Source: Saprolegnia diclina VS20
Lineage: Eukaryota > Oomycota > Saprolegniomycetes > Saprolegniales > Saprolegniaceae
Direction: 5' to 3'
DNA: 64,000 nt
NCBI RefSeq assembly: GCF_000281045.1
Contig: NW_008246086.1
Location: 427,793 to 491,792, forward strand
Part shown: positions 2,084 through 59,026 of the stretch, piece after piece
Layout: every line of letters starts with the position of its first letter
Position numbering within the stretch: position 1 is the first letter of the stretch
The notes under the pieces: model-generated
Told to the model about the DNA's origin: nothing
Database searches by the model: none
What the model saw: the letters and a program-made list of their open reading frames with translations, nothing else
Position numbers and translations under genes: made by a program

Positions 2084-2107
2084 CGGCCAAGCTGACTTGT
2101 GATCGCC

Positions 2108-21032: not shown

Positions 21033-24149
<3,117 letters not shown>

Positions 24150-30671: not shown

Positions 30672-33116
30672 ATGTTGTCCGCGTTGACGCGTTCGGCGCG
30701 CCGCCAGGTCGTGGTGCCCTCCTCGATGGCCACGGTACGCACTCATGGCCTATGCGCGCGGTCTTGACGTTGCCGTCAATGCAAACCGCGTGCAATTTGG
30801 ATCAGAATGGGTGGGCTAAATGCGATTTGTGTGTAGCGTGCGGCCTCTTCGACCCCGCTCTCGGTCTTGGACCCTGCCGGCAGCCCCACGATCGACGAGA
30901 CGTACGCCAAGATGGAGAAGAACATTGCCATCGTGCGCAAGACCATCAACAAGCCGTTGACGTTGGCCGAGAAGATCATTTACGGCCACTTGGACGACGC
31001 CAACTTTGGCGTGCCCAAGCGCGGTGAGACGTACCTCAAGCTCCGCCCCGATCGCGTGGCCATGCAGGACGCCACGGCTCAGATGGCGGTGCTCCAGTTC
31101 ATCTCGTCGGGTCTCCCCAAGACCGCCGTCCCGTCGACGATCCACTGCGACCACTTGATCACGGCCGAGAAGGGATCGGTTGAGGACTTGAACACGGCCA
31201 ACATCGTCAACAAGGAGGTCTACGATTTCCTCTCGTCGGCCGGTGCCAAGTTTGGCATTGGTTTCTGGCAGCCCGGCAGTGGTATCATTCACCAGATCGT
31301 CCTCGAGAACTACGCGTTCCCGGGTGGTCTCATGATTGGTACGGACTCGCACACGGTCAACGCCGGTGGTCTTGGCATGTGCGCCATCGGTGTCGGTGGT
31401 GCCGATGCCGTCGATGTCATGGCTGGTATGCCCTGGGAGCTCAAGGCCCCCAAGGTCATTGGTGTCCACTTGACGGGCAAGCTCTCGGGCTGGACGTCGC
31501 CCAAGGACGTCATCCTCAAGGTCGCCGACATCCTCACCGTCAAGGGTGGTACCGGCGCGATCGTCGAGTACTACGGCCCCGGTGTCGAGTCCATCTCGTG
31601 CACGGGCATGGGCACGATCTGTAACATGGGTGCTGAAATCGGTGCCACGTGCTCGACGTTCCCCTTCACGGAGCGCATGGCCGACTACCTCGTCGCCACG
31701 AACCGCTCGGGCATTGCCTCGGCCGCCCGCTCGTTCGCCGCCAACCTCCGCGCCGACGACGGTGCCCAGTACGACCAGATCATTGAGATCAACCTCGACG
31801 ACCTCAAGCCCCTCCTCAACGGCCCGTTCACCCCCGATCGCGCCAACGTTGCCGGTGCGCCGATGGCCGCGGCCTCGGCCGAGAACGGCTGGCCCACGGA
31901 GCTCAGCGCGGGTCTCATTGGTTCGTGCACCAACTCGTCGTACGAGGACTTGTCGCGCTGCGCCGACTTGACGCAGCAGGCCAAGGCCGCGGGCCTCAAG
32001 TTCAAGGTCCCGTACTTTGTCACGCCCGGCTCGGAGCAGGTCCGCGCCACGATCCAGCGCGACGGCATCTTGGATACCTTCAAGGAAGCCGGCGGTACCG
32101 TCCTCGCCAACGCCTGCGGCCCGTGCATTGGTCAGTGGAACCGCACGGACGTCCCGATGGGCGTCAAGAACTCGATTGTGACGTCGTACAACCGCAACTT
32201 TGCCAAGCGCGCCGACGGCAACCCCGAGACGCACGCCTTTGTGACCTCGCCCGAGATGGTCACGGTGTGCTCGATTGCCGGCACGACGACGTTCGACCCG
32301 GCCGTCGACTCGATCACGCTCCCCAACGGCAAGGAGTTCAAGTTTGACGCGCCCCACGGCAAGGAGCTCCCGCCCCGCGGCTTTGACGCTGGCGAGGACA
32401 CGTTCCAGGCGCCGCCCGCCGACGGCTCGAAGCTAACGGTCAAGGTCAGCCCGACCTCGGACCGCCTTGCGCTCCTCGAGCCCTTTGACGCGTGGAACGG
32501 CGAGGACATGCTCAACATGCCGGTGCTGATCAAGGCCAAGGGCAAGTGCACGACCGACCACATTTCGATGGCCGGCCCGTGGCTCAAGTACCGTGGCCAC
32601 CTCAACAACATCTCGAACAACATGTTGATCGGCGCTGTCAACGCTGAGAACGACAAGACGAACGAAATCGTCAACCAGCACACGGGCGTGTGGGGCAAGG
32701 TCCCGGACACGGCCCGCGACTACAAGGCTGCGGGTATCTCGTGGGTCGTGGTCGGTGACGAGAACTATGGCGAAGGCTCGTCGCGCGAGCACGCTGCGCT
32801 TGAGCCCCGCCACCTCGGCGGCCGCGCCGTCATTGTCAAGTCGTTTGCTCGTATTCACGAGACGAACCTCAAGAAGCAGGGCATGCTTCCGCTCACGTTT
32901 GCCAACCCGGCCGACTATGACAAGATTACGGGCAACGACAAGATCTCGATCGTCGGCCTCGACAAGTTTGCGCCGGGTTCGCCGTTGACGCTCCGTGTCA
33001 CGCCGGCGTCGGGCGCGGCCTTTGACATCACGGTCAACCACACGTTCAACGACGAGCAGATCGACTGGTTCAAGCACGGCTCGGCCCTCAACTTGATGAA
33101 GAAGCTCAACGCCTAA
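30672..33116 (+). CDS. ACO2: Aconitate hydratase, mitochondrial
   Basis: Isomerises citrate to isocitrate in the TCA cycle. Exon 1 (30672-30734) and exon 2 (30837-33116) join in phase 0 to 780 residues, the size of animal mitochondrial aconitase precursors. The N-terminus [18 protein letters not shown] is a good mitochondrial presequence. The 4Fe-4S ligands are seen as Cys in [10 protein letters not shown] and both Cys of ACGPCIGQW. Other signatures are [25 protein letters not shown], and [18 protein letters not shown] near the C-terminus. The single intron (102 nt) is the longest clear one in the window. Codon choice favours GGT and C-ending codons more than its neighbours, as expected for high expression. 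It is convergent to the TMEM107 gene, the stop codons being 68 nt apart. Confidence 0.97.
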
Positions 33117-35019: not shown

Positions 35020-38000
35020 ATGGGCCCAAGCACGTGGGGCCTCGCAGCCGCGTCGATCGGCGCCGTGCTGAGCGCACTTGTCGACGCGCTCACGTCGACC
35101 GTGCGCTTCCAGCCCGTAGGCCGCATGCCATGCGCGATGACGACGGACGCTCATGCTGTTCTAGCTGCCACCTGGGACCTTTCTCTCGACCTTGGAAGAC
35201 ACACCGCTCAACATCACGAGCCTCGCACTCGCCGGTGTCGCCAGCGACGCGATCTTGCACGTGCTCGTACGCAGTCGCTGGCAATGATGACCACAAGATG
35301 ACCACGTGCACGTAGGTGGCCTGTACGCATGGCACACTCGGCAGCAACGACGCGAGCGCCTGGGTTAGCGCCCGGACCGTGTGCGCCAGCCCCACGTCCT
35401 TTGTCATTGAAACCACGCTCTCCAACGCCAATGCGATTATGAAAACCCTCGTTTACACGCCAAATGCCCACTACAACTTTGACTGGTCGTCGGGTCTATC
35501 GTCGCCGTGTGTGCACCGGGACCAGTCGCCCGAGACAGTGTACTTCTTCGCGGTCGAGGCTGCCGCGCCCACCAATGACGCACTGCTAGCGTCTTGTGGC
35601 GACCCTCTCTCGCCGTCGACGGTGCGCCACCTGGTCCATCGGTATCCGTCCAACTACGTGGCCATCCCCGTGTCGATTGTGGCGGTCAACAATCCTCCGA
35701 GCCTGGCTTTACCAACGGGTGTCGACATGGCACCGGCGTCGTGCACGTTTTTAGATATCGTAGCAACAGACTTAGACGTCGACGAAGTCGCCAACGGAGC
35801 GGGTATGCTCACGTTCTCGATGAGTGTGCCGGCGTCCAGCGCGCAATACCTTGCGTTTGCCTCGTCGAGCTTGGTGCGACATCAACTCCAAGCCCTCTCG
35901 ATGGCAACCTTGTCGTACAACAGCGTCAATACGACCGTCTCGGCCATCGTCGTCCAGGGACCGGTGGCGGGCGTGAACGCCTGGCTTCGAGATCTCTCCT
36001 TGTGTGTGCCGCCCCAAGTGACGTCGGCGTCCTGGACGCTAAGCATCGCTGACAGTGGCAACTGCGGCAGCTCGAGTAGTGCGACGGCAACGTACTCGAT
36101 CGCAGTGTCGATCACGCCGACGATGATGCCCACACCGGCACTGACCGTCACGACGCCGACGCCTACGCTGGTCATGACGGATCCTACGGTCGCTGTTCAC
36201 CTCGGGCTGCAAGGGACTGCAGGGCAGGCTACACACTCGTCCATTACGTTTGCTTCGCAGTTTGGATACATTGGTGTCCCCACCTTGCCGCCCGACGTAG
36301 CAATCGGCGACGACCGGTACATCACCGACGTCTCACTCCACTCGACCGGTATCGTGGCGCAGGAGCGCATCACCGTGTCCTCCACCTTTACAAAAGAAGT
36401 GCAGCTGCTCCGAACAACCGCGGACACCGGGAGTACTATCGTCGAAGCCGTCGTCGTTGTTAGTTTGACGTACCTTGGCACGACGACGTCTGCTGTCGTC
36501 GACCTCACCGACGAGTTTGGCTCGGCGACGGCGGTGGCCAAAGCGCTTCAATCCGAGCTGACCAATGCCGGCGACATCGCCGTATCGCGAAGCCCGCCGG
36601 ATGCCCAAGGGGGGTGCACGTGGAGCATCACGTTCACGTCCTTGTCTGGATCGACGATTCCGCTGTTGCAAGCCACAGTGCAGAGCTTTCCGGCGCCGTG
36701 GTCGGGCGTCGGCAGCCCCGTGACGATCGTACGTGCCACCGCCGGGTCGTTGATTCCCCCCGTCGTGGTGGTCACCATTCCGGATGCCACGGTGCAGAGC
36801 GGTACGTTTGAGCTTTCCGTCGGCGTCGACGCGGCCTGCAACGGCGCCACGTCGGCGTCGTTCGCGACCAATCCACTGCCGTTCAACGCCCTGGCGACGG
36901 ACGTTCAGGCGGCGCTTACCCAAGGTTTCATCGGCACCGTCGTCGTTTCCAAAGTCGCGTCGTTCACATGGCACATAACCTTTGTCGCCAACACGTATGT
37001 CGACTGCTTGGCAGGCGTCGTCGTCGTCCCGCAGTTCCGTGCTGGCACTGGCGCGCACTTGTGCAGTACGTGCCAAACCGGGATTCCGTCCATGACGGTG
37101 CAGACGCTTGCCGTCGGTAGCAAGGCCGTCTTGCCGACAGATACGTGGCAGTGGACGGCGCTGCTGAACCCGCCACGCAGCGTGTCCCTGCCGTTGCTCA
37201 CGAGCCCATACGCGGTCCAGCAAGCGCTTTATACGATCGGTGCGACAGCCGAGGTTTCGACGAGCGACTGCGTGGCACCGACGCTTCAATGCACGTGGAC
37301 GATAAGCTACAATGGAGCCCCGCTTGAAGTCTCACTTGGTCCGACGACAGGTGCGCTGCAACTGCAACACCGCGTGCTGAGCCAAGGTGCACTGCCGATT
37401 TGCAAGACGCCGTCATGAGTTGTCTGTCTGGGCTAGGGCGACAACCGCTCGCAACACCGTGGACGCTACTCACCAACACGAGCAGCCGTACCGGCATCTC
37501 TGTTCATATTTCGGACGCACGGCTCACGCAATTGGTGGCGTCTTTGGTCGATGACGCGACGGCAACAACGATGACGCTTGCGCGTGACGCGTACGATGTG
37601 ACGTGGCGGCTTTCGTCGGCACGATCAAAGCATGTTTCGGTGACGACCGAGTCGTTGGCCACTGTCGAGGTTCACACAACACCCGAGCTGCAAGCCGTGC
37701 AATCGGTGCCGGGGCAAGAGCACCACCTGGTTGTGCGACTTCGTAAGACACCGGCACTGGACAACGTCATCGAGCAGGTGGCGCTGCAGTGCAATGCGAT
37801 TGGCGGATCGTTTACGATGAAATTTCGCGGTGTCACGTCGGCACCGATACCGACGTCGAGTACGTTGGCGCAGCTTGCCGATGCGCTTTCGGCGATGCCG
37901 ACGCTGCCCAATGTGTTTGTGCCGTCGTCGTCGTCGGCAACGGCGTCCATCTGCGGCAATACCGTCGTACCCATCTGGTTGAGTACACCAACCATCGTGC

Positions 38001-41000
38001 AGTTGAGCGTCAGCGCCACGGTGCAGCCCGCCATCCAGACACTCCAGCTGACCGTACCGCTACCACCGACTGGCAGTGTGACGGTCTTTGCGCAATGGAC
38101 GTATGCGGGTGCGACAACGACCGCACCGCTGGTGCTCATACCGACGGCGACAACGTCGTCCGCATCGGCGCTGCAGCAGCAACTGACGGCGGCGTTTGCA
38201 ACCATCGGTGACGTGATCGTGACGCCGTCGGCATCGACGCACAACGTCCTTGGTCAGTTCACGTGGGACATCACGCATACGTCGCTGCATGGACCCGTGA
38301 TACCACTAGTCGTGCTCAACACTTCGGTCGTCGGGTCGACGGTATGCCTCCATGGTGTAGTGACACGGTACTCATCGATGGTTAGGCGACCGCGACACTG
38401 CTTCAGCCTGGAAACCGGAGCAATGCGGTCGCGACAGTCGTATCTCGCAACGATCAAGTACCATTCATGGGCACGTTCCGGCTTCAAATGACCAACGCCA
38501 TATCCTCCTGGACATCGACGCAGCTTGCATGGCAAGCCTCGGCCACCGATCTTCAGCTTGCACTTCGCAGCATCCCCGCGCTGGGCGCCGTGCGGGTGAC
38601 ATCGACCGCCGTCTCAACGACTGAAACCCACTGGCAAATCACGTTTTTAACGTCGGCGGCGGCGTGGACGGTGGCGGTGCTCTGGAACGACGGCCGGTCC
38701 GTGCAATCTTGCGCCGACTGTGTGACACCGACGTATCCGTACACGCTCACCGCAGATCCGCAGCTGCACGTCACGACGACGCCCCCCGATGCCGCGTTCG
38801 ACGGTGCCTTCTCAGTGTGCTACAACGGAGGCGCCACCGATCCCTTGCCGCTGCGGGCGTCAGCAACAACGGTTGAGAGTGCGCTCAATGCCCTCCTCTC
38901 GGGTGCACAGCAGGTGGTCGTGACGGCCTTGCCGACGACCAGTTACGCGCAGCAGTGGCTCGTTACGTTTCTCTCGCTCAACCCAACACCGCCACTCACA
39001 GTTGATACGACTAATGTCTCTGGCTCGGGCGTCCACGCATCGATAAACGTTGTTCAGAGCTCAAAATCCGGGGCCATCGGCAATGTACCGCCGCTCACGC
39101 TGGAGCGCTTGCCATCGCTGGTGTTTCCCGACCCCATCACGGCGGTGCTGCGCGTCGCTACGGTACAGAACGGGTCCCACGCTCTAGCCGCGCCGTACCA
39201 AGCGCTGCAACTATGTAGCACATGCCTGCTCCAGTCGGCTCAACAGACGCTACAGTTGACGAGTACGGTGCCTATGGGCGGCAACTACCAAGTCTCACTG
39301 CTTGGGGCATCCGTCATGATTCCAATCACCGCAAGTCAGAGCCAAGTGCTGCTGCTGCTCAACACACTCACTCGCGTCGTGTCGGTGGTCGTGACGGCAA
39401 CCGTCGGACTCAGCTACCAGTGCGTCGTCACCTTTGACCCGATTGCAGGCATCGTACCCAAACTGAGCGTCTCGGTGGCTGCCGTCACCGGTGCCAACGT
39501 CCAAGCGTCCGTCGTTGTCAACGCTGCCGGGAACGCTGTTGGCGGGACCTTTGCGGTGCGCGCAGGTGGTCGCACGACACATCCGGTGGCGGTCCATGCC
39601 GACGCGGAAGCTCTGCAGCGAACGCTTGGCGCTCTTCTCGGCAGCGAGACAACGGTATTTCGGTCGGCGAGTCCAACGATTCCGAACGGCTACTGCTGGG
39701 CGATCACGTTCTACCCCGACGTATCGATCGACGTCGATGTTGTTCGGGGATGTGATCCAACACCGATGGCCGCTTGCGGTCTCACTGGCGCCGGCGCGGA
39801 CATCCAGCGTATCGAGCTTCAACATTTGGAGCCGCCAGACAGTATTTCCTTTGCTGAAGGCGACCAGGCAACGACCAGGGTGCCCGTGGGCGCATCGGCA
39901 CTCGACGTGCAACGGGCGTTGCAGAGCTTACCGTCGTTTTCATCGACCGCCGTCGTCAAGGCGCCCAGCGTCCTTATGGACGAGTGGTACATAACAAACT
40001 ACTCGACGCCTGCCCATCTGCAAGTCGTCGGACATGGGCTCACGGCGACGTCCGTGTCGGTCGTCACGTTTTACCGCCCACCGCTCCGACTCACGGGACC
40101 GAGTTTGAGTCTTGCGGCTAGCGCAGCGCACCTTTGCTACCAGCCACATCTCGGGCTATACAACCATCGTGTCGATACAATCGTCATAACGACAGAGACG
40201 GGCACGACGTCATTGGACGTCATAGTTCCACCAGCGTCTACGGGCCACCTAGTTGCGAGCGATCTTCCTCACATGCTTCTTGTCCCGTTCACGGGCAGTT
40301 TGCGTGTGCCCAGTGTGGACCTTCGCTATGTGGCCTTCGACACGCTCTCGTCGGTGGTCACCGACGTGGCGTTGACAGACAATGTGTCTGTTTCGGTCCT
40401 TGTGACGTCTGGCGTTCAGCTGGACCTGCCATTCCACAGGAACGCCCACACGTGGACGTACAATGGGACGCTGGTTGCTGCTGCCGATGCGCTGCGCCGT
40501 CTCCAGCTGCAACGATCCTCGCCGACAGCCGATCCCGCCGTCATTTCATACCGCGAGAAGGTTGTGCTTGGCGTCTCGGCGGCGCTGACGACCAGCCCAC
40601 CCGTTGCGCTAACGGTGTCGGCTCCTCAAGGCGCAGTCTCTGGCACGATGGCCCTCCGCTTTGATGTCAACGATATAGTCGAGGCTTCATGGTGCACACC
40701 GCGGTCGCGCTGCCAGTGCTCAACCGACGCCATTGCGTATCCGTTTGAGGCGTCGGTCGTCGAAACCGCAATCGAAGCCATGACGACACGCTGCTCGCAA
40801 GTGCCGACGCAGCGGATTCAGACACTTCAGATGCGATTTCCAGCGCCGGTAGCGACCGTGCCGCCCGAGGCGAGTGCGTTCTCGCTGCAGTACGCCGGAC
40901 ACACGACCCAAGTGCTCTCGGGGCAGTCGACGCCCAGTGCCGTGCTAGCGGCGTTGTTGGCACTGCCGTCCATGGCCTCGATTGTTGGCAAACTGGTCGT

Positions 41001-44000
41001 GACGACGCGCACTCTGGACGCGTATACGCTGCAGTACATCTTTACGTTTGATGCGTCGCTCGCGTCCGTGGCCCCGTTGACCGTCGCGACGTCCATGTGG
41101 TTTCCGTCCAACAATACGCTGACGTTGCTGTGGGTACCACAGCCGTCGTTGCGCCTGCATTTCGCAGCTGCCGTCACGTGCACCGGCAACAGTTGTACGC
41201 TGCAGTTTCTCGCGGATCTCCCAGTTCTCTCGGTCGCGTCGAGCACGCTCACGACCACCGTGGGTCCACCACCGACCGTGACTGTCACCGGTGGGCGCGC
41301 AGCCCTCATGGATGTCTCGCTCCCGGCGTTTCTGCTCTTGGGCACGCCGTTTCCGTTGCCTACGACGGAAAGTAGAATGCAAGCGGCGCTTGCTGCCACA
41401 CTCGGTGACAGCGTCGTTGTCACAAAGAGCACCGATGCCGGCATCGTAAGCTGGCAGATCACCTACAGCGCAGTCGAAGACGCAGTCGATCCAACGCTCG
41501 GCTTTGTCGATCTCCAGCTGCCCCATGTCGCAGTGACAATGACCACCATCGACCCTGGAGTCGTCGTCGCCTGCAGCAACCTCACGATCGTTGCAGCCAC
41601 GACCTCCAACACCGTCGAGCGCTCGATGCTGCTTCGGTTGGACGTAGCACCCGTTGATTCCACGAGCAATGAGCTTGATACGTTGTCGCCACCTCCTGTC
41701 GTATGCTACATGACGGTGGCGTCCGGTGGCAGCCTCTTGACAACACTGCCAGGCACCTCGTTGGCCTTGTCGAGCCACATTCATCTCGTCTCCAGCACCG
41801 CCGACGCCGTCGTCCATCTCGCCGTCACGACACTGCACGGCATCGTGTGGGTTGACCCCCCGCACCGAGACCTTGTCGAATACATTGCTGGGTCTCCGTT
41901 TGGTGATCAAGCGCTGGAGCTACGTGCGACGGCTTCGTCCCTTGCGCTCGCTTTGTCGTCCCTCTTGTACAAGGCGCCGACGACGTATGCTGGGAATGAC
42001 TCGGTGACGATCGTCGTCGCTGGCAATACGACGGTACCGACGGTGCTCTCGGTCGTTGTGGCAGCCATGGACGCACCGCCAAGCCTTTCTTTGGAGCGTA
42101 CGTCACGAGCTATAGTAGATGCATTGGCGTGAACCCACAGAGTAGGCGTAACGTTGCGACTGTACGAAGATACTGCAGCATCGCTTCCAAGCTTTAGCAT
42201 TGCCCCATCGCCGTACACACGAGCGAGCTGCGCTACGAGCACCGTCTACAACGTCACGCTGTCAGTGGACCACGGGACACTAAGTTTCTATGGCTACGAA
42301 GCTAGCGCAACGCTGACGTTTCTAGCATCGGCGCAGAATGTATCGGCGATGGTAACGTCGACGGTGTATCGCCCGTTGCCCAACTACGCCGGTCTCGACG
42401 CCGTCACGATCGGCGTGCGTCCGATCTCGTGCTTGGCATCGACCTCAGGAATTGAAGCGAGTGCCGTCGTTGCTCTCATGGTCGAAGCCGTGCCCGACCC
42501 GATTCTACTGAGTCTTGCGGAACCGGCCAACAACACGACAGTAGTACATGGCGTCGAGGCGGTGCCACTGCCGACTGTGGTGATCACGGTCGTCGATGCC
42601 ACACCGTTGACCACCGATGTCTTTGTCCGTCTGCAGGTGACGACGCAAGTGGGGTCTGTGACGTTTGGTGCGACGCCCAGTGTGTACACCCCCGCCAGTG
42701 TCTACTGCCGTGTAGAGGTCGCTACGAGTCTCTTGGCGGCGCTCTTGTACCGAGGACCAGCAACTGGCAGCGGTAACGACTCGGTCACGATTCGGGTGTC
42801 TGGAGCCGCCGACGTCGACACCTCGGTGCTGGTGCTCCCCGTCATATACACGAATGCGCCACCACCGCTGACTCTGGAAAAGGCTGCCGTTGTCGTCGAC
42901 GAAGATGGCACCGTATCGCTCAAAAACATTCTGTCGGGTGGCGCCATGGATACTATCGTTGCTGTGCGCACTAGCGTAGGGTGGCTGCGACTGGGAACCA
43001 CCGAATCTTCCGAGTGGACCAAATCTCTGCGTGTACCAATGTCGCGGGTCGACGAGCTGCTCTACAAGTCCAATGCCCACTACAACGGGGACGACAGCGT
43101 CTCGTTCACGGACACGTCGGGCGTTGGGGTGACGCTGCCTGTCGCGGTCTTGGCGACAAATGACCCACCAACGCTGAACGGGAAGCTCCATGTGTCATCC
43201 ACGGGCGCACTCTGTGGTCTCCAGATCGACGACGTGGATGGCAACGACTACGCCAGCAACAGCTACGTGCTAACTCTGCAGTCGTCAAAGGGGTATTTTT
43301 CAAGCACCGATGCACCCGGCATTCGCCTCCGCCCGGTCGCCAACGGCATGTCGCTGCAAGGAACCCTCGAAGCAATGAACCGTGCCTTGCGCGACTGCGT
43401 CGTTCGCTTGACAACGCCGACACCTGCCAATGTCACAGTGTGCGTGAAAGAGTACGAAACACTCATGGCCGACCCGAGCCGACACAACTGCCTCCAAAGT
43501 ACGCTTGAGATTCCGCAACGTGCGCCGACGCCACCCGAGCTCACCGCGTCGGCGACACAGGTCACTGTGCTTGAAGATAGTGCGGTATCGATCACGCCGT
43601 TCTTCACTGTCTCCAACGTCGATGACGCTTTTGGTACTGTCACCGCGATGTTCACTGGCACAACTGGGACCTTTGATTTGAGCACAATGGCGCCATCCGG
43701 GTGTGCCACCGTGACTGGCAACAGTGTCACTGGCCGCCCGAGCTGCGTGGCGTCCGCGCTGGCAACGCAGCCGGTCCTGTACCGCCCGGCGGCCAACGTC
43801 CACGGTCCTGACGTCATCACGGTGGCGCTTGGTTCAACGTCCGTGACGCTCTCGGTTTGGATTCAAAGTGTAAACGACCCACCAGTGTGGCGCGTCAACA
43901 CGACGGCGTCGGTGTGGCGCGTCGATGCTGCCATCGTTGCCTCGCACATGCTATCCTCCTACGGCACGGTGCATCTCGACGACCGCAACGACTCGACGTC

Positions 44001-47000
44001 CGACGTCATGTCTTTGACACTGGCTGTGGACCATGGGACGCTCACATATACACTCGTACCGGGTACGTCGCTCCAGAAGTCGGTGTTGCCGCCACGGCTC
44101 GTCGTCCAGGGCACAGTCGCACGACTCAATGTGTTTGTGGCCAGTCTCGAGTACACTCCATCGCACAGCACCACCGATGTACTGTCGCTCTCGGTAGTCG
44201 ATGGCTCCGTGGTCGTAGCACTGGACATTGATATCCTCGTGGCGTGTTTACCACAGATCACCGTTGCCACCACTGACGTGGCGGTCACCGTCGGTGCCAC
44301 GACAGGAATCGACGGTCTCTCTCTTCCATTGGCATGCGGCTCACGGCTGCAATTGTGGACGCTCGAGCTTACAGCGCTGGCTGGCACGTTGTATGTGCCG
44401 GCGCAGCCGCGTGCGACTCCGTACATCAAGCTCACACAGTCGTTGCGGGATCTTGATGCTTTGCTTCGGCTTTTGCAGTACACGGCGCCCGCGCAGTCGA
44501 CGACCGATACCATTTCGCTTCAGCTCTCCTCCAACGACACGGCGTTGCCGACGACAAATATCGTGGTGCAGGTACAACCGCAGTATACACCACCGACCAT
44601 CGTCTGCGCCGCGCTTTCTGAGACAATTCTTGCCGACGCAGCCGCGACGCAAGCCTTTGGTGACACATTCCTGCTTCAAGGTGGCAGCGCCGCCACGTAC
44701 ACGGTAGCCGTTTCTGGACGGTCGCCCGTGTACCTGCAGTTGGACCCGACGTCCGCGTCCATCTCAGCGTCGACGTTTGCTCCGACGACAGAGGTTCACT
44801 TTTCGGGCTTGCTACCACACGTCCAAGCAGCACTGAGCAAGTTGGCGGTGCACAGCAACTATACCGGCGTGCTGCCAACCACGGTCAATCTAACCGTAAC
44901 CATTGCCAGTGTCGATCCTATGGCGCCTGCAATGAACGCGACGTGCAGCGTGGTGGCCGCGATTGCGCCGACCAACCATGCTCCAAGAATCCAAGCACAA
45001 CCCGGGCGACAGGCGCGGTGCGGCGTTCGCGTTGACGACATCGATGTGTCGTCGAAAGGCTGGGCGTCCTTGATGCGGTGCTCGATTGCAACATTGGTCG
45101 ACGGCGGCTTTGGCATCGTTGCACAGCTGCCACCGACCGTGCGATGGGTGAACGAGACGATGCTGGGACCCGGTCAATGGCGCGCCTTGACGTTCGAGGC
45201 TCCTCTGGAGCACGCCAACTTGCTTCTCGGATCGGTTCTTCTCAATGCGACGAGTGGAAGTATTGAGTATCGCGTCGACGATCTCGCCCACGGCACGCTA
45301 CTTCGCCCCCATATCGCGTACCGCACGATCGAGTGCCGAGGCCAGCGGGTTGGCCCTGTGTCGACGGTTGCCTATCTAGACAGTAGCAACCAATCGTGCG
45401 CGGCGGGCAACGATCCTTGCCTACTACAGGGTGTCGACGTGACACCGATGTCCACCGATGCAACGTCGGTGCAAGTGTCGGCAACGGCAGTAGTCGGCTT
45501 CACACCCTCCATTCAGGTGGTGCAGACAACCGTTGATGGCCATCAGGACCAAGTGTTTGATGTCGTCGTCGCGACCCCGGCAGCAGGCACCATCACGATG
45601 CGTGTGACGTGGCAAAGACCCGATGGGCTCCAAGGACAGACGGCGTTCACAGTGGATGCGACCGCTGTTGCAACGATGATGGAAGAGATCAGCGGGCTTT
45701 CTGCTGGCCAAGGACTTGGCGGTTCGATGCAGTCGCAAGTGAAGGCGGCACTTCCGACGCCAGCGCCGGCTCGCATCGAGGTCACGTACGGTCCATCAAG
45801 TCGACAGCACTGGAAGGTGGCCTTTGTGGTCGTTGCCACCGAGCTATGGACGTTTGACATGTCTCTGGTCGCCACGACGGGAAGCATCAGCGTGAGCGTT
45901 CAACCGAGTGCGCTCCTATCGCACATCGCGGGGTCGTTCGAGCTCCTGTTTCAAGGCATCCCGACAGCTCCGGTTGCTGCGTCGGCCTCTGCGCTCGACA
46001 TGCAGCTGGCGCTCGAAGCTCATCCGCTGCTGCACCGTGTTGCCGTCACACGAACGCGACGACCCGACACGAGCGGCGGGTTCGCGTGGACAATCACGTT
46101 TCTCGACGCTGCGTACGATCTCCCAGTGCTAAGTGCCAACACCGCACAGTTGCAACCGCAGCCTGCACCGCTTCTGGGCGCCGGCAATCGAATCTATGGC
46201 AGCGCGGCAACAGTGCATATAACGTCATTGCAAGACGGCTACGGAACCCCCGATGTATACGACGTGGTGCTGTCGGCGCAGCACGTCAACCCCGTGCTGC
46301 AGATCGCGGTCGTTTCCTCCGCGTCGCGTGTCACGGGCGACTTCTCTCTCCAAGTAGCGTTTCCCAACGGCACACTGCGAGCGTCGACACCGGTGCAGTA
46401 CAACGCCGTCGCGATGATCGCCGACGAAGGCATCGACACAAGCCTTGGTGGTCGCCCAGGGCAGTCGCTGCAGGCGGCACTCGCGACGATGCTGCCCGGT
46501 GTTGGCTGCCGCATTCAACGAACCGGCCCCGTGGCTAACGGCGGCTACACGTGGTCCATTACCCTCTACAATAGCCCCGCGTCGCTGCCTCCGTTGAGCG
46601 TCGTGTCGACCTCGGGCGGGCTACGGGTTGCTGACGTTGTCGTGTCGACGGTGACGGCGGCCAATGCGCTTGGTGGAACGTTCGTGCTGTCGTATCGCAA
46701 CGAGACATCGGCACCGATTCCATATGATGCGTCGTCCAGTACCGTGGCGTCTGCGCTTGGACAACTGCCGACCATCTCTTGCAACGGGCGGGGCCGCCTG
46801 CTTGTGCGAGACTCGGACGTCGGGCTAGAGTCTGGTCGAACATTCTCGGTCGTCTTCTTGGCTCGCTGCCACGAGTCACTCTTCGAGACAGACATAGCGC
46901 CGATTGTGGTCGATGGCACAGGTTTGACCGGCCTCGGAGCGTCGGCCGTTGTGCGTTCAACCGTCGCTGCAAGCTACGGCACACTGCGGCTCGCGTCAGA

Positions 47001-50000
47001 TACAAGTACGCAATCGCGTTCGGACACGGTGCTGCAGCGCCACGCTGGCCTCGACCTCATGCTCCAAGGACGACCTCGGTATTTGAACCCGATGCTCCGT
47101 CAACTGTTGTACACGCCGGACGCGACGTGGTTTGGGACGCTGGAGCTCTACTGGTCGACGTCCGATGGCGTGTCGAGCTTGTCGTGGACGTCGCCGGCGC
47201 CTCAAACAATCACAGTGCGACCGCCGACGCGCCGCCACATGATCGTTACGTTTCACGGCTGCCACGCGCTCGAGGATATGCCTCTGACGCTGCAAGCGTT
47301 GGCCTTGACGACGTGTCGACCGCCGTATTCGCTCGTCTCGCTGACACTGGCGACAAAAGTGGGTACACTGCGCTACCGTGACAGCGACGCGACGTCGCAA
47401 CTGAATGTGACGACGGCCGTTGCGCGCCTACCGTCCGTGATGTCCAACGTCGTCTACGCAGCGCCGATGCATTTCAACGGCGTCGAACAACTGACGGTGG
47501 CGCTCGACGACGCCCCACCCCAAGTGTTTCGCTTCGCCGTGTGGCCCGTCCCCGACGCTCCGTACATCCACATCAACGGCTCGGACGACGGTACATAATT
47601 CCTGTGAGAGTACGGGGCATGACGACGGTATGTAGGTGCGGTGGCAACCGGGGCCTTGCCGCCTGTCGCTTTGACAATGGACCAAGACACAATGCTCTTT
47701 CTTCCCGGCGCTTGGGTCGAAGACTACGACGACAGTGCGCAGTCGTGGATGTTTCAAATTGCAACGACGGTCGGCAGTGCCAAGTGCTTGAACTTGATGC
47801 AAACGATCGTCGTGACGTCGACACCGACGATGCTACTGTTTTTAGCGCCGATCGCCAACGGCAACCGCGCTTTGCAAGCCATGACCTACACGCCGCCCAA
47901 GGGGTACACCGGCGTCGCCACAGTAACGATCATCGTGCGCGGCACCACGAGCTTCCTCGAGCACGTGCGACGTTTGGCCATTACGGTCACACCGGTCGTG
48001 ACGCTGCCATCGCTCGCTGTTCGCTCCAGTGTCTACAAGGCGGTCGAAGATCGATCGCTGTCGCTACGGTACATTCAACTCGAGGTCGAATCGTGGACAC
48101 CGGCGCAGTACGCAACGACAGCCGCATCGACTCTGTTTCGAAGCGAAGTGCTGCGACCGGACACGGCCAGTGGTGCATGGGGCCAACGCGACGACTGGCG
48201 TTATAGCCAAGTACCCAGCTCTGGCAGTAACCCACAGTGGTTCTCAACACTTGGTAACATCCTCTACTACGCGGCCGACGACCCGGTGGCAGGACGCGAG
48301 CTGTTTGGCTCGGACGGTACCCGGTCCTGGCTCGTCGCGGACATTTATCCTGGCTACGAAAGTGCGACGCCGACGTCGCTGGCTACGTTCAACGGCCTCG
48401 TGCTCTTTGGTGCATCGGGTCTCGACCTCTCGTGGCAACTGCCGGTGACGACGTACGGCTGCAGCGCAGCGCGGTCCAGTCCGTCGTTCCCAAATGTGCT
48501 TTTCGTTGTCACCAAGACAACTGTGTGGTCGCCGGCGCGGGTGTACGACTGCCCCATCGGGTACACCTGGATGATGACGGCGGATGCGACCAGTGTCTTC
48601 AACACGTCGGCGGTTGCCGTCGACTATGTCTACTGGAACGAATGCGGCTGGGACGGCTATACGTTCCTGGGCGCAACGCGCAAGTCCTTTCGCTTTGCCG
48701 ACTCGAGCGCCACGGGCGGCATGAAGCATGCTGGCCGTCGGGTCGACTATCCAGTCGAGTACTCGACGGCAACAGCACAATTTGCTGGCATCGTGTGCAT
48801 GGCGTCACCGGCAACGACGCCACTGCCGTCGCAGTTGTGGCAAACCGACGGTACGACAACGCAAAAGGTCAACGCGGCGTTGACGCACCCCACCGCGCTG
48901 ACACCGATAAGCTCGCGGTTTCTGTTCTTCCAGGCGTCGACGCTTGCGTCCGGGTCGGAGCTCTATCGCTATGACGGCACGACCATCTACGACCAAGATC
49001 TCTCTCCTGGCATTGGTAGCTCGTTTCCCGACGGATTTACGAGCTTTGCGGGCCAAGTCTACTTTGCAGCGACGACGCCGACGACCGGCCGTGAGCTCTG
49101 GGTGACGTCGGTCTCGGGTGCGAGTCCATGGGCCACCAACGTCGCCGCCGACATTAACACCGGCGCGCTCTCGTCCCATCCAACGGGGTTGACAGCGTGC
49201 GGTTCGCAACTGTTTTTTGCGGCCGACGACGGCGTCCACGGACGAGAACTCTATACATTCAACGGCGTCCAGGCGGCGCTCGTGACCGATCTGCTTCCGG
49301 GCAGCACCGGCAGTGATCCAAAGTACGTGACATGCTACAAAGCCAAAGTCTATTTTCAAGCTCTTGGGAGTACGGCGACCGGTGTCGAGCTGTACGTGTC
49401 GGATGGCACAGCCGGCGGCACGATGCTGCTATTGGACATTGCCCCCGGTGTCACGAGTTCAAGTCCGTCATATCTCTCGGTGCAGACGCAGACGCGCGGG
49501 GGTGCGGCCATCTCAACGCTTGTGTTTTGCTCCACCACGGTGGCATCGACATGCCTCTGGTACGGCTCGGACGGCTCGGCGATTGGCACCAAACCGCTCT
49601 GGAGCACGACGACTGCACTGGCAATCAACCCAACGACGTTTCAAATCGGCAACCTCGGTAGTACGATGGTCTTTCCCCTAATCTCGACAACCACGTCGGT
49701 GGCACCGGCACCACCAACGGCACAGCCAGTGGTGCAACTGAGCCTCAATACGTCCATCGGGAGCGTCCGACTGCATGCCTCCGAGAACGTACAAGTACTG
49801 CACGACGGGTCGCTTGGGTTATCGGGCTATTGGGTGCTTCGAGGTGCCGTGTCCCATCTCAATACGGCACTTCAGACAATGGTGTACCGCGCGCCGCTCA
49901 ACTGGAACAGCAAAGCGCAGTTGACGGCATCGGCGCCGTGGCGTGACGCGCCGCCGCTCGCGATGTTAACGTTTACGTGGTCGGACATTGCAACTGCCCT

Positions 50001-53000
50001 GACCGACACGGCATCTGCGATCATATTTGTTCAGCCAACGCCCGACCCGCCCGTGCTACTTGTCGCCCAAGCCACAACTATACCAGGCACACACACGGCC
50101 GACAACCTCTCCCCGTTGCTGTCGACGGTACCGACTCTGATGGTGCCGGAAGACGTGCCACGCATCGTTTCCGGTCTCTCGATCCGGGCGGTCGACTGTC
50201 TTTGCATGGATGGCAGCTACTGCGAGGAGTGTACTGTACTCGTAGCGATCTCAGTTGCGCACGGCACCGTATCGCTGCCGCCGACAAGCGGTGTCGCCTG
50301 GGCAGCAGCGACGGCACCGAGCACGTGGCATCTCTCGGGCAATGTCCCCTCCGTCAACCGCGCGCTGTCCCAATTGTCGTACCAAGGCCAGAACAACTAT
50401 TACGGAACCGACGCGATGGTTCTTGTTGTCTCGGTTCTTCAACCGCTCGCGATTTCGGGGCTCGAGTCGACGGCCACCATGCCCGTCGTTGTCACACCGG
50501 TCAACGACGTCCCGTACATCGTCCTCGGTGCCGACTACTACGACACGATTGAAGACGAGGCGCTTTTACTTCCTGGGTTTTACGCCGTCGACGCGGACAA
50601 CGACAACGTCTCGGTCGCGCTCACCTTGGACGTCGGTGCGATCTCCGTGGCACACAACGCCACCATCGTCGCTGGCACCGGCAATGGCGACACGACGCTC
50701 GTGCTGAACGGGTCGCTCTCGATGGTCAACGCGGCGCTATCAACGCTCACGTACAACCCACTGCGTCACTGGAACAGCGCAGTGGGCGACAGCTACGACA
50801 CTCTGCATTTGCGCATCACCGACGTTGGCGGACTCGATTCGTACTGGCAAGTCACGATCTACGTGGCGCCGGCGCCTGACACGGTGCGCATCTCAATACC
50901 CACGGTAGCGTTTGGGACCGCGACACCGGCGGTCGCACCGTCGACACTGCTTTACACGATGGAAGGTGCCGTGTTGCCCATCGCCAATTTGTCGCTCTCG
51001 TGCGTCGACGCCGTTGCAACCAACGTCGTCACGGCGACGCTACGCGTCGCGCACGGTGGCTTGAGCGTCGGTGTCACCATCGGTGTCCAACGCACGTCGT
51101 CAACGCCGACGGTACTTCAACTCGTTGGCACGTACGCCCGAGTCAACGCAGCACTGGCAACGCTCGTGTATGCACCAGCGACGTACTACAACGGCGCCGA
51201 CCAGCTGACTGTGAGCGCGACAGCCTACGACGAGGCCATGCCGGGTGCATTCAGTCTCCCCGGGCAGCGTATCGTCGCCATCTCGGTGCTCCCCGTCAAC
51301 AATCCGCCGGTATGGAGCCTCTCGGAGCAAACGTTTGTGCTCGACAAGTCGGTACTGCAGCAAAGTGTAGCGCTCGACCACCTATCTTTCATCGATCCGG
51401 ATGCGCTCGACCAGGTACTCGAGCTGACACTGGAAGCCACCTTTGGGCAGTTGACGCTCAACCCGCATGCCTCGATTGCGCTTGTTGTCGGTGCCGCGGC
51501 CCAGAGTTCGTATATCGTTGTGCGGGGCACCCAGACGCAGCTCAACCTCGCGATGTCGTCGCTGCAGTTTGAACTCGACTTGGCGGCGTACACGGGGGCA
51601 GAGGTGGCGACGGTGCAACCGCGGGTCGTCGCGACGATCGACGACTTGGGCAATTCTGGCGCCGGCGGCCCCAACGTCGTTCAGACGCGACTCTTTGTGC
51701 GGGTCACGTCGATTCGAAACGCGGCGCCCGTCATTACGCTCCCGGCACTGAGTATTGCGATCGATGAAGACACACCGTACACGCTGCACGGCCTTGTGGT
51801 GACGGACGATGACGCTGCCGACACCTTTGGCAGTGAGGTGCAGGTGACCTTAGCGTGTGAGCATGGGCACTTTCAGCTTGACACGAGCACCGCCGGTCTC
51901 GACATTCTCGAGGAGGAGCCCGGCCTCTTGCACGTCCAAGGGCCGTTGGAGCTCATCAACTATGCGCTCCAGCGTGCCACGTACGTCGGTGCCCTCAACT
52001 ACTTTGGTCAAGACAGCATCGTGGTGACGGCAAATGATCTCGGCAACACGGGCACGGGCGGTCCGCAGCAAGCATCGGCGACGATGGCGGTTGTCATAAC
52101 GTCCGTGTGCGATCCTCCGACGTGGGCATCGACGCCGCCGGCGCTCTTTTCGACGCCCGAAGATACACCGTTGTTGCTTTCCGGCGCGTTGCGTCTTCAG
52201 GACGTCGACGCCAGTGTCATGGACGTCGATCGCGTCTTGACGCTGTCCATCTCGGTGGCGGTCGGCGGCGTCCTACTGGCGACGCACGCAGGCCTGCATG
52301 TGACAGCGTCATCGACAAACGACGGCGTCGGGCATCTCTATTACTCGACGGCGACGATCGCAGGCACGGTCGACGACCTGAATGCAGCACTGCGCGGCCT
52401 GATGTACCTTTCTCCTGCTGACTGGACCTCTGACAGTGGTGGCGGCATCACGTACGACCGCGTGACGCTCGCGATCCGCAGCAGTGCCTGTGCGTCATCG
52501 AGCAGCATCGTGCTACTGGTGAACGTGGCGTCCGTCAACGACGCCCCGCAGCTCGACCTGCCTTCCTGGGTCGCACCGGGTTTGCTGGACGCTGCTGTCG
52601 TCGTCGACGAGGATACCGTCGTCGCCTTGGGTCCCATCGGTGTGACCGATGTCGACGCAACGACATTGATCGTTTCGGTGCAGTGCTCGAGCGGCAGCGT
52701 CGCTATGCCTCTTGCGCCGCGCACCATGTGGTTTCACGCCACCGGCAGCGCGCTCCTCTCCTTTCAAGGCACGGTGGAGGACGTCAACATCGCACTCGCC
52801 GACGTGGCCTTTACGCCGGCGCCCTACTTTGTCGGACGGTCCCTCATCGTGCTCAACGTCTCGGACGGCACGACGCTTATGACGAGCGCGACGTTTACGG
52901 TGACGACGCAAGCCGTGGCGACGCCGGTGCAGATCCTTGTGCCGGACGAACCGCCGGTGGCGATGCGCAATGCGACGACGCGTCTCGGCAACGTCTACCT

Positions 53001-55111
53001 CCCGACGACCATCACTGCATTGCATCTCCCGCCGCCGTCGTTCACGCTCTTTCAAAGCTCCATGGTGCAGCCCGACACGAAAGCTAATGCTACCGACGTG
53101 AGCACGACGTGGCGGAGTGCCGAGGCGAGCGCAGAGGTTGTGTCCCCCACGCACTTTGCGACGTTCCAGGGGCGGCTTGTGTTTCAGGCGACGACGCCAG
53201 CCGCCGGCACCGAGCTCATGCAGACGTCGGGTGGGGTCACGACACTGCTCGCGGATCTCTACCCCGGGCCATTGAGCGGCAACCCCACCGAAATGGTCGT
53301 CTTCTCGGTCGACGGCAACCTCTACTTTGCCGCCGATGGCATCGACACGTCGTGGCGCCTGCCGCCGTCGCACACTGACACCTGCGGAGGCCTCCGTCGC
53401 AGCTCCGTGTCACCGACCGTTGCCTTTGTCGTCGCCGATGCCAACACGTGGCACCCCACCGCGGTACGCGCCAAATGCCAACATGTAACCGACTACAACC
53501 GGTGGGGAATAGGTGTACGACTGTCCAACCGGTTATGCGTGGGCGACCACAGCGCAAGGCCAAGCACTCTTCGTCGGCACGCAAGGTGCGAATGGATCGC
53601 TGGCCGAGCCATTGACGTACTATGACCAATGCGGCTGGGACGGGTACACCTACGGGGGTCGCACCCGCCACTGCTTTTGGTTTGCCGACTCGGGGGTACG
53701 CCCTACTGTTTTCTCGGTGAAGGAAATGATGCAAAATATCGTGATGTAGACCACGGGCGCCTGCAAGCACGCGGGCCAGCGCGACTCGTTCCGCATTGAA
53801 TTCGATGCGTCGACGACCAATTTTGCCGGAATAGTATGCGTAGCAACGCCGTCGACACCGACGCGTGGGCGCGAACTCTGGCGCACCGACGGTGTCGTGA
53901 CATCGCGCGTCACGGACATTGCGATCGGTTCGGACAGCGCCAACCCTACGTACCTCACCGAGTACAACGGTCAGCTCTACTTCCAGGCGTCGACGTCCGA
54001 CCTCGGCGCGGAGCTCTACACGTTTGACGGCACGCGAGCAACGATCGTATCTGATATCGTACGGGGGAGTCGCAGCAGCCACCCGCGGTGTCTCACCGTG
54101 TACGGCGGCGCCTTGTTCTTTACCGCCGACTCGGACGTCTTTGGCGCCGAATTGTGGACGTTTGACGGGACCAACGCGCTTCTTGTGCACGACATCTGCA
54201 CCGGCGTCTGCGCGTCATCACCGACGTCGCTTGTGGCGTTGCCCAACTGGCTTCTCTTCCAAGCCGACGACGGTGTTCACGGCCCCGAGCTTTGGAAAAC
54301 CAACGGCGTGAGCACGATGCTGCTGCTGGACATTTACTTGGGCCCGACCGGATCCCTGCCGTCGATGCTCACTCGTTTTGGCACTAGTGTCTATTTCGCA
54401 GCCAACGACGGTGTCCACGGCACCGAGCTCTGGGTCACGGACGGCAATAGCGCAAATATGCTCGTCGATCTCGTACCTGGGGCAACGTCGTCGTCGCCGC
54501 AGTACTTCACCGTGGCGTCGGCGGGCCTTCGCAACACGCTGTCGGTGTCGCCGGCTTTGTACTTTGCCGCCACCACCGCCGACGGTCAAAGGACGCTGTA
54601 TGCATCCGACGGTTCGATCGGCGGGACCAAATGGGTCACGGCACCGGTGGCGATCGACGACGCGGCGCTGCAAGCGATGCCGCGACCGGCATTTGGACTC
54701 GCGCAGTCGACGCTCTTTTACCCGGGGAGGAGTCCGCAACTGGCGTGGGCTTCCGTGTGGAACGGCAAGCAGCCATTTGTGCCGCTTGCCCGCTCGCAAT
54801 CCGTCTACCTCGTGGACGTCGACCAGTCGACAGCGCTGGCGACCGTGTCGATGTCGGTATCTTTTGGCCAAATTGTCATCGCCACGACCGCAACCCGTGT
54901 CACGTTTGTCGTCGGCTCCAACGGTGTGCCAAGCCAGATGCTGACGCTGCAAGGCGCGGTGCCGGACCTCAACCTTGCGCTTCGCGACATCTTGTATGTG
55001 GCCTCCGCCACGTCGACCGGTGACGACACGGTCGCTCTCTCGGTCGCACGGCAAGGCGATTGGTTGGCCCCGAGCACCGCGTCGTTTCCGGTGCGTCTTG
55101 TGTCAACCTAG
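35020..55111 (+). CDS. Giant secreted repeat protein, about 6567 residues
   Basis: Nine exons (35020-35115, 35165-35266, 35316-37386, 37437-38341, 38386-42097, 42146-47590, 47636-53463, 53513-53695, 53750-55111) splice in frame through introns of 44-54 nt. The ATG at 35020 opens a signal peptide (WGLAAASIGAVLSALVDA). No membrane helix or anchor is seen at the C-terminus. Three modules alternate. Cadherin-like beta domains, with EDTPL or DEDT starts, DHGTL strands and NDPP or NDAP linkers, occur at about residues 40-330, 2120-3370, 3900-4240, 4800-5900 and at the end. A beta repeat of about 100 residues (G-F-L...L..L....V.V...W.ITF) fills about 400-1600, 1800-2110 and 3400-3890. Two propeller cassettes lie near 4240-4720 and 5915-6415. 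A surface or adhesive role is inferred from the architecture; no function is established. Confidence 0.9.
36390..40060 (+). repeat. First block of ~100-residue beta repeats
   Basis: About ten degenerate protein repeats inside the giant gene. Each has a GTF-like start, an alternating hydrophobic strand, an A...ALQ..L helix-like stretch, a V.V strand and a WxITF strand. Examples are near 36600 (CTWSITFTS), 36960 (FTWHITFVA), 38260 (FTWDITHTS), 38630 (HWQITFLTS) and 39690 (YCWAITFYP). Related copies recur at 40620-41540 and 45450-46930. DNA identity between copies is low, so the expansion is old. Confidence 0.75.
48010..49690 (+). repeat. Propeller cassette A in giant gene
   Basis: Seven ELWxxDGT-type blades are readable: ELFGSDGT, QLWQTDGT, ELYRYDGT, ELWVTSVS, ELYTFNGV, ELYVSDGT and LWYGSDGS. 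Between blades 1 and 2 a Cys/Trp-rich module is inserted (VYDCPIGYTW, then NECGWDGYT, KHAG, and FAGIVC). No intron interrupts this copy. Confidence 0.8.
53040..54650 (+). repeat. Propeller cassette B in giant gene
   Basis: Second copy with the same order: ELMQTSGG, then the insert (VYDCPTGYAW, DQCGWDGYT, KHAG, FAGIVC), then ELWRTDGV, ELYTFDGT, ELWTFDGT, ELWKTNGV, ELWVTDGN and LYASDGS. Here two introns (53464-53512 and 53696-53749) cut out exon 8, which encodes exactly VYDCP to FADSG. Confidence 0.8.
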
Positions 55112-57794: not shown

Positions 57795-59026
57795 CTAGTC
57801 TTCGTACATCCACTTGTTGCGGATGCGGTGGCGCTTGCGCTTCTTCTCCGCGTTGACCTTCTTCCAGTCGACGTTCTTCTTCTGGAGCGCTTCCTTCATG
57901 CGCTTGGCCTCCGCACGGTTGGCCTCAAAGGCCGTCATGTCGAAGAAGTTGCTCATTTGGCGCCCGGCCTTGTCGCTCGGTACGCCGGCCTTGGCCCAGT
58001 AGTCGTTGTCGAGGCCCGCGCTCGCAAACCGCCCGCTCACGAGGCTCATGCCGGCCGTCGACGAGTAGTCATACCCCACACGCGACGCAATCGACGCGTT
58101 CGCCGCCGCCGCTTGCGCATCCACCGGGACCCAGTCCGCGTTCTACAGCAAGCGTGTGAGTGCACATCATATGCGAACGTAATACCACATACGCCGGCCG
58201 CGATGCCGCCTTCGGTCGGGACCTCCCACTGCGTCGTGCCCGTCTCCGAGTCGTGGTAGTAGTAGCGCTGCGTGTTGGTATCGTAGTGCTGCTGCCAGCG
58301 CGCCGTGTTGCCCGACGCCCCGACGTTGCCAAGGATCGAGTTGAGGCGGTTGACCGGGTCGTTTGCACTCGCCACTGGCGCCGACGTCGTCGGTGCGGTT
58401 GCCGTCGCCGCCGACTGCGCCTTGGCCGCCGACGAGTTGGCAGCAGCGGCCGCTGCCTTGTTCATCCATTCTTGGTACTTGGCGCTGCCCGAGACGACCT
58501 CGGTGCTCGCAATCGCGGACCCGTCCTTGATCACACCGTCGACGGGCTCTTCCCACGTCGTTTCCTTGGTGTGCACGTTGAAGAAGTACGGCTTGTTGGA
58601 CGTCGCGTCGATGTACCGGTAGTAGTCGGGTGCCTTCTCATCAGCGACGGGCGTCGGCTTGGGCGCATCCGCGATCGCGCCAAAGGCGTACTCTTCCTCG
58701 ATGTTTTCGTCCTCTTCTTCGTCGTCGTCTTCGCCTTGGTCGGACGTGTAGAACGTCGGCGCCTCCCACTGCGTCTTGCCCGAGTTCATGTCCGAGTAGT
58801 ATGGCTTCTGGGTCGTCGGGTCAATGTACTTGACCCAGAGGCAGCCATCGTCGTCCTCGATGGCCTCGGCCTTGCGCTTCTTCCCGCTCTCGCCGTCGCC
58901 GCCAGCTTTCGCCGCAAAGTCCTTGGGCTCATCCCACGTCGTCTCGCCCGTCGTCTCGTTGAAGTAGTACGCCTTGTTCGAGTCTTCATCCACGTGGCGG
59001 ACCCATGCGCTCGTCGGCGGGCTCAT
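57795..59026 (-). CDS. Four-WW-domain protein, probably splicing-related
   Basis: Two exons (59026-58193 and 58142-57795, intron 50 nt) give 393 residues. Four WW domains are visible: AWVRHVDEDSNKAYYFN...TTWDEP (residues 7-37), LWVKYIDPTTQKPYYSD...TQWEAP (about 61-92), YYRYIDATSNKPYFFN...TTWEEP (about 137-168; first Trp replaced by Tyr) and RWQQHYDTNTQRYYYHD...TQWEVP (about 243-273). A stretch rich in Asp and Glu separates domains 2 and 3. The C-terminus is a basic helical tail (AKRMKEALQKKN, EKKRKRHRIRNKWMYED). WW arrays plus a basic tail resemble FBP21/WBP4-like spliceosome-associated proteins, so binding to Pro-rich splicing factors is inferred. The first true ATG is at 59026; the frame can be read further only from a GTG. 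Confidence 0.85.

Follow-up and report, generated by a model that had tools for sequence, protein, structure and literature searches.

Module architecture of SDRG_06940, a giant predicted extracellular protein of the oomycete Saprolegnia diclina

The stretch of 64,000 nucleotides (nt) analysed here, termed the window (G000:C19:427793-491792), is part of the 54-Mb assembly of Saprolegnia diclina VS20; a first-pass annotation, made from the letters alone, had rightly supposed that its host is an oomycete. The window contains the gene SDRG_06940, whose very large product is composed of three types of module, A, B and C, arranged in blocks whose order recurs in other oomycetes. B appears to be related to structural proteins of a mycobacteriophage, A to a tandem repeat of bacterial proteins, and C forms the blades of two predicted beta-propellers. 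The product may be an extended, multivalent protein of the cell exterior. A specialist would not expect B to be akin to phage proteins and to recur at several giant loci, nor the module order to be conserved. The analysis turns an unnamed record of 6567 residues into a testable, conserved strand of extracellular type, with named modules in a fixed order.

A single intact gene and its blocks of modules

SDRG_06940 begins with an ATG at position 35020 of the window, and the stop codon of the spliced translation ends at 55111. Its exons of 96, 102, 2071, 905, 3712, 5445, 5828, 183 and 1362 nt are separated by eight GT...AG introns (Table 1), five of which are in phase 0 and three in phase 1, as derived from the exon lengths. 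Once spliced, they yield 19,704 nt, or 6567 codons and a stop, free of internal stops. The model shows 0 differences over 6567 residues from the public protein of the same name, and the gene is therefore one already deposited and known as an unnamed public record, annotated as hypothetical or, under a UniRef name that begins ‘Cadherin domain-containing pr’, as containing a cadherin domain. This agreement, along with the unbroken frame, bears out the earlier proposal of one intact gene with nine exons and eight introns of 44-54 nt.

An automatic dynamic-programming search for introns, run with wide settings, placed other junctions at the 5' end. These were rejected for a hand-set model with short introns, which is that of the public record. 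For exon 1 and intron 1, the only support is the sequence together with the public record. Intron 2 is backed by an A module that crosses its junction (residues 39-128, independent E-value (i-E) 2.6e-16), and introns 7 and 8 by the second of two insert domains described below, which, joined over both, aligns to the first (46%, 110 columns).

Chance is excluded as the source of the open frame. For 100 first-order Markov sequences matched in length and composition, the longest forward open run had a mean of 304 codons and a maximum of 567, while the longest runs in the gene, counted from stop to stop, reach 1821 and 2000 codons. Third-position G+C lies between 0.67 and 0.78 in every one of the frame's 14 segments. 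Open runs so far above the simulations speak against a long functionless frame or several genes wrongly joined, as does a colinear orthologue with 50% identity over 6534 residues; against misjoined genes there is also a single Pythium protein that covers most of propeller 1 through propeller 2. Nothing was found in favour of this explanation, which we consider very improbable; the later starts of the S. parasitica and Achlya records, near residues 772 and 93, suggest a difficulty in predicting such long models.

A putative signal peptide was read by eye at the N-terminus, and a Kyte-Doolittle scan alone revealed no membrane anchor; secretion of the product is plausible on these two readings. 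The protein is rich in T, A, V, L and S and contains 44 motifs of the N-glycosylation type.

Module profiles were built from SDRG_06940 and its relatives with its own copies included, so that their E-values are partly circular; 20 shuffles and the reversed protein gave best false matches of 0.002 (A), 0.005 (B) and 0.068 (C). At i-E <=1e-3 the protein holds 49 modules, namely 24 A, 14 B and 11 C, with worst E-values of 6e-6, 3.5e-9 and 2e-15, respectively. A further B match (residues 688-734, i-E 0.0079) was dropped because a shuffled control had reached 0.005, and B is thus counted at 14 copies and not 15. The order reads A2, B11, A10, B3, A3, C5, A8, C6, A1. The three module types that the first-pass annotation had left unnamed were all recovered by profiles; its description of them as interleaved needs qualifying, as they lie in blocks and do not alternate one by one.

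The cadherin label of the public record was also considered. Extracellular cadherin (EC) repeats (PF00028) had no match at E <=1 in exons 2-9, nor in a longer piece that takes in exons 6-7, and of the calcium motifs LDRE and DxNDN.P occur 0 times and DxND three times, scattered. With both the family and the motifs failing, a classical cadherin identity was rejected. The motifs LDRE and DxND are those given in the consulted section of PMC2926784. The Pythium ultimum cadherins described there resemble SDRG_06940 in being oomycete proteins with repeated extracellular beta modules; unlike them, SDRG_06940 is without PF00028, LDRE and DxNDN.P.

Table 1. Features of SDRG_06940 (positions in the window) and of the further giant loci (contig positions).
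Feature	Coordinates	Strand	Details and basis
Whole gene SDRG_06940	35020..55111	+	9 exons, 6567 residues, 686 kDa, isoelectric point 4.8
Putative signal peptide	35020..35091	+	~residues 1-24, exon 1; by-eye reading of translation
Intron 1	35116..35164	+	49 nt; splice model
A modules 1-2	35183..36122	+	residues 39-335; profiles
Intron 2	35267..35315	+	49 nt; splice model; junction spanned by an A module
B block 1	36519..41493	+	11 phage-type modules, residues 468-2094; profiles, PDB match of B profile
Intron 3	37387..37436	+	50 nt; splice model
Intron 4	38342..38385	+	44 nt; splice model
A block 2	41737..45291	+	10 modules, residues 2176-3344; profiles
Intron 5	42098..42145	+	48 nt; splice model
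B block 2	45931..46929	+	3 modules, residues 3558-3890; profiles
A block 3	46900..48009	+	3 modules, residues 3881-4235; profiles
Intron 6	47591..47635	+	45 nt; splice model
ELWxxDGT beta-propeller 1	48229..49614	+	residues 4309-4770; TIGR04534 205.9 bits; predicted model
Four-cysteine insert domain 1	48460..48798	+	in propeller 1, residues 4386-4498; insert alignment
A block 4	49699..52926	+	8 modules, residues 4799-5874; profiles; tandem-95 match of exon 7
ELWxxDGT beta-propeller 2	53122..54697	+	residues 5940-6430, interrupted by introns 7 and 8; TIGR04534 237.8 bits; profiles
Four-cysteine insert domain 2	53383..53839	+	in propeller 2, residues 6027-6144; insert alignment
Intron 7	53464..53512	+	49 nt, within second insert domain; splice model, insert alignment
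Intron 8	53696..53749	+	54 nt, within second insert domain; splice model, insert alignment
A module 24	54797..55102	+	closes protein, residues 6464-6565; profiles
C1 giant (loci L023-L025)	G000:C1:408634-434073	+	one frame, 8480 codons; 31 B; 42 TIG stretches (18, 18, 6 in three pieces)
C4 giant (loci L027-L030)	G000:C4:706942-737101	-	frames of 8849, 732, 549 codons with 33, 6, 2 B (41)
C86 giant (loci L031-L033)	G000:C86:152879-174998	+	frames with 7, 5, 9, 12, 1 B (34); FN3

Orthologues and the conserved order of modules

A search for orthologues in other oomycetes, which had been proposed as a check, found them in S. parasitica, Achlya hypogyna and Pythium insidiosum. The S. parasitica protein SPRG_09820 (P0122, 5656 residues) is 78% and 84% identical in two long pieces, A. 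hypogyna ACHHYP_16742 (P0124, 6468 residues) aligns in one colinear piece (49.8% over 6534 columns) and P. insidiosum PINS_up013291 (2516 residues) is 33% identical over 2387. Metagenomic relatives are P0125 (28% over 3101), P0123 and P0034. The list is a lower bound, as the Pythium protein was returned by one search and missing from another. Because such lists are demonstrably incomplete, the lack of Phytophthora, Aphanomyces and Albugo in them means nothing.

The module order in Achlya is A2, B13, A10, B3, A4, C5, A8, C6, A1. The shorter Pythium protein reads C5, A8, C6, A2 and, at 33% identity, shares a run of 19 modules with SDRG_06940. P0125 (A5, B3, A3, C6, A8, C1), P0123 (A14, B6, A2, B1, A11, B3, A11, C7, A2) and P0034 (A4, C8, A2) complete the set. 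The layout in which eight A modules stand between two groups of C, retained at 28-33% identity, is the most telling sign that selection acts on the architecture. Pythium propeller 2 is 46% identical to propeller 2 of Saprolegnia and 37% to propeller 1, which together with the colinear alignment favours, but does not prove, that the two-propeller layout predates the split between Saprolegnia and Pythium.

The public models SPRG_09820 and ACHHYP_16742 begin ~771 and ~92 residues after the start of SDRG_06940, and the S. parasitica alignment omits residues 3254-3376. The late starts and the skipped stretch are probably errors in the gene models and would conceal the signal peptide.

Kinship of the modules and further giant loci

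The B module had no Pfam match in the exon pieces scanned. A profile of ten copies (seven from SDRG_06940, with Achlya, P0123 and P0125 contributing one apiece) was compared with 177,635 solved sequences and gave three matches at E <=1, all of them to mycobacteriophage Bxb1: the tail tip cage protein gp23 (5.1e-21), the major capsid protein (0.0068) and the tail tube (0.39). A second profile drew its twelve copies from two further giant loci, using 12 of the 14 top-scoring B matches listed; with it, gp23, capsid and tail tube again ranked as the top three, at 2.3e-30, 1.7e-4 and 0.034, followed by four further chains at 0.32 or above, one of which is a phage connector protein. The ten-copy profile with its letters reversed found no phage protein and had a single unrelated match at 0.78. 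Within the module, the match to Bxb1 lies for the most part in the N-terminal 40-60 residues. Among PHROG families, the major tail protein matched SDRG_06940 at 0.0013 and 0.002, and a piece of the C1 giant (Table 1) matched tail sheath at 1.2e-18 and major tail protein at 1.1e-14. A template-free model of residues 3540-4110 was weak (predicted local distance difference test 52.1, predicted template modelling score 0.31); used in Foldseek, it had tail tip chains of Bxb1 in the first three places (E 1.9e-4 for the first) and the Bxb1 capsid in the fourth, all four with TM-scores <=0.15.

By sequence profile the B modules are related to structural proteins of Bxb1, and gp23, capsid and tail tube (PDB 9D93, 9D9W) would share the module with SDRG_06940. 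In contrast to the Bxb1 proteins, SDRG_06940 is a eukaryotic protein of secreted type with 14 copies of B, and no phage core domain was seen in it. The link is visible to profile methods and barely to plain tblastn: B queries of 50,697 phage records gave four matches (two phages, each recorded twice; E 4e-3), and a piece of another giant gave none at E 1e-4. B was present in only one of 125 other proteins retrieved with the sequence of exon 7, which is itself without B.

Proteins of the ELWxxDGT family TIGR04534 are expected to adopt a beta-propeller fold. The family cut-off of 65 bits was surpassed in exon 7 (205.9), in exon 9 (237.8) and in a longer piece (207.7), and the 11 C blades are shared between two propellers (5 + 6). 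The blades belong to predicted beta-propellers, and a model of the first bore out the expected fold. Each propeller holds an insert of ~115 residues with four cysteines, which in one search was found only in SDRG_06940; the gene appears by its propellers and inserts to be single in the S. diclina genome. The insert domain is defined here. Against Pfam and solved structures it had no convincing match, the best structural candidate, a PACAP receptor at E 0.7, being taken as chance; in viral contigs 37 pattern matches were found, of which 0 were confirmed, and the exon 7 protein had no match there.

Among the 125 proteins retrieved with exon 7, mostly unnamed or bacterial, 95 carried C and 61 carried A. 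Bacterial ELWxxDGT proteins, which often also hold tandem-95 or cadherin-like repeats, have the blade of 46-47 residues in common with SDRG_06940; the latter differs in being eukaryotic, spliced and 6567 residues long, with two insert-bearing propellers and with B modules. A tree of 84 propeller sequences, 11 of them insert-bearing, did not group the insert-bearing set as one clade, and because it did not resolve, transfer of the propellers from bacteria is neither shown nor excluded by it. The places where relatives of the modules occur nevertheless suggest a bacterial or phage transfer as their origin.

The A modules seem to be related to the tandem-95 repeat NF012211, which scored 30.0 bits in exon 6, 45.7 in exon 7 and 65.1 (E 4.4e-18) in a piece of 3772 residues, as distinct from the whole protein, the cut-off being 90 bits. 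Cadherin_4 (PF17803, cut-off 25.1) matched four stretches of exon 7 alone at 28.4 bits and is not relied on, because it was no longer listed at E <=1 when the same stretch was scanned within a longer piece; Big_9 reached 20.9 bits, below its cut-off of 23.6. Outside SDRG_06940, a query with A block 4 matched only a 646-codon frame with three A modules (G000:C1:880244-882181, minus strand, locus L034). A glycosyltransferase, the best solved structure for the A profile at E 0.0035, was taken as chance, as were matches below the cut-offs of Pfam and NCBIfam at E 0.009-0.5 (such as Cyanophycin_syn, COXG, PspD, DUF1412, SFXNs, PRK09290 and MPH_3).

B queries of the S. diclina genome led to at least three further giant loci (Table 1), which bring the detected copies of B to 120 over four giant loci, including the 14 of SDRG_06940. 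The single open frame of the C1 giant makes it larger even than SDRG_06940. The frames of the C4 giant, and those of the C86 giant, were each taken as one gene by assumption; the long frames of the latter would probably make up the exons of a single further giant gene. The piece of the C4 giant that was scanned holds FN3, PA14 and filamin domains. With 31-41 B modules each, the three loci offer a module-based way to list the surface giants of oomycetes.

Three FN3 giants of S. parasitica, with 6547, 9440 and 5297 residues, reach their highest levels in cysts, according to Table 1 of PMC5771568 in the portion consulted. The C4 and C86 giants are plausible counterparts of some of these. The cyst-peaking proteins described there are like SDRG_06940 in being giant, of secreted type and from the same genus, and the FN3 giants of the S. 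diclina genome carry B; unlike them, SDRG_06940 has no FN3 (PF00041) in Pfam scans, and of 74 FN3 matches in the genome 0 fall on its contig. Two clusters of FN3 frames, most of ~600-1200 codons, lie on G000:C57 at ~269-282 kb (minus strand) and 317-332 kb (plus strand). They are candidates for further giants and for counterparts of the cyst FN3 giants.

Possible functions and neighbouring genes

We favour, at roughly even confidence, the reading of SDRG_06940 as an adhesive or matrix protein of the cell exterior, extended and multivalent. The kinds of module make plausible the adhesin or matrix role that the first-pass annotation had suggested; its hyphal, wall-linked and mating-surface variants would be candidates only. 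The N-terminal signal would direct export through the secretory pathway, and the A and B modules would form a stiff or extensible rod that carries the two propellers as heads. If each module spans ~4 nm, the rod would be of the order of 100-200 nm long. The B modules, the insert-bearing propellers or both may bind glycans or partner proteins, such that the multivalent rod would cross-link material of the wall or cyst coat, or stick the cell to surfaces. The cyst coat or matrix is the most likely place of use by analogy, cysts being proposed because the FN3-bearing giants of S. parasitica peak there.

In phage Douge, appended immunoglobulin-like domains bound mycobacterial glycans, as stated in the consulted part of PMC13033339. 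If B sticks to glycans, surface domains of phages would be linked to coat building and attachment in water moulds, fish pathogens among them. On a broader and more tentative view, which we hold to be possible but doubtful, giant strands of oomycetes were built by uptake and multiplication of bacterial and phage modules, in an order older than the Saprolegnia/Pythium split, with B still sticking, as glue or coat. Under that view the propellers and the tandem-95 or cadherin-like repeats would be bacterial and the cysteine insert made by eukaryotes.

Several observations weigh against the favoured reading of an adhesive or matrix protein. The matches of B to solved structures include no chain of Douge, whose presence among those structures was unchecked, and for this reason a glycan role of B rests on analogy. 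FN3, TIG and PA14 had no match in the six exon pieces scanned (exons 3-7 and 9), and 2140 of the 6567 residues lie outside the modules and propellers as drawn. Pythium propeller 1 is equally near to propeller 1 (39.3%, 251 bits) and propeller 2 (40.2%, 248 bits) of Saprolegnia, so that only propeller 2 speaks for an early duplication. SPRG_09820 is not among the five cyst candidates in the part of PMC5771568 consulted, and the two locus tags were found in none of the papers searched. As a literature term ELWxxDGT had no match, and no listed title dealt with SDRG_06940.

A purely structural protein in the walls of hyphae, oospores or sporangia, whose modules hold wall layers together and are non-adhesive, would share the secreted look, the composition and the many glycosylation-type motifs of SDRG_06940, and a chitin synthase gene lies ~11-14 kb upstream, possibly by coincidence. 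No known wall-binding domain was found in the pieces scanned with Pfam, and we regard this alternative as rather unlikely. It is less probable still that the protein is a stored giant glycoprotein of the peripheral vesicles of zoospores, retained in the cyst and unsecreted. The consulted part of PMC3869178 describes PnLpv as larger than 400 kDa and as staying in vesicles at encystment, and the Phytophthora Lpv proteins it reports are likened to SDRG_06940, by description only, as oomycete proteins of >400 kDa; conserved propellers with inserts would, in our judgement, be unexpected in a reserve protein.

About as improbable as storage is a part in a filamentous surface organelle, either the hooked hairs on Saprolegnia cysts or flagellar mastigonemes. 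The length and the presumed rod-like build would suit it, and hooked hairs, which seemingly occur in Saprolegnia alone, are seen within 30 s of encystment, as PMC5771568 has it in the part consulted. The orthologues in Achlya and Pythium argue against a component made only for Saprolegnia hairs.

Other genes of the window were assigned by Pfam. The chitin synthase (21036-24149, minus strand), ~11 kb upstream of SDRG_06940, has an MIT-like domain before its catalytic part (27.2 bits, cut-off 30). The window also encodes a Foie-gras family protein (2096-5323, plus strand), which we take to be of the TRAPPC11 type, a protein kinase (14250-16196, minus strand), an aconitase (30837-33113, plus strand) and a protein with four WW stretches (58049-59080, minus strand).

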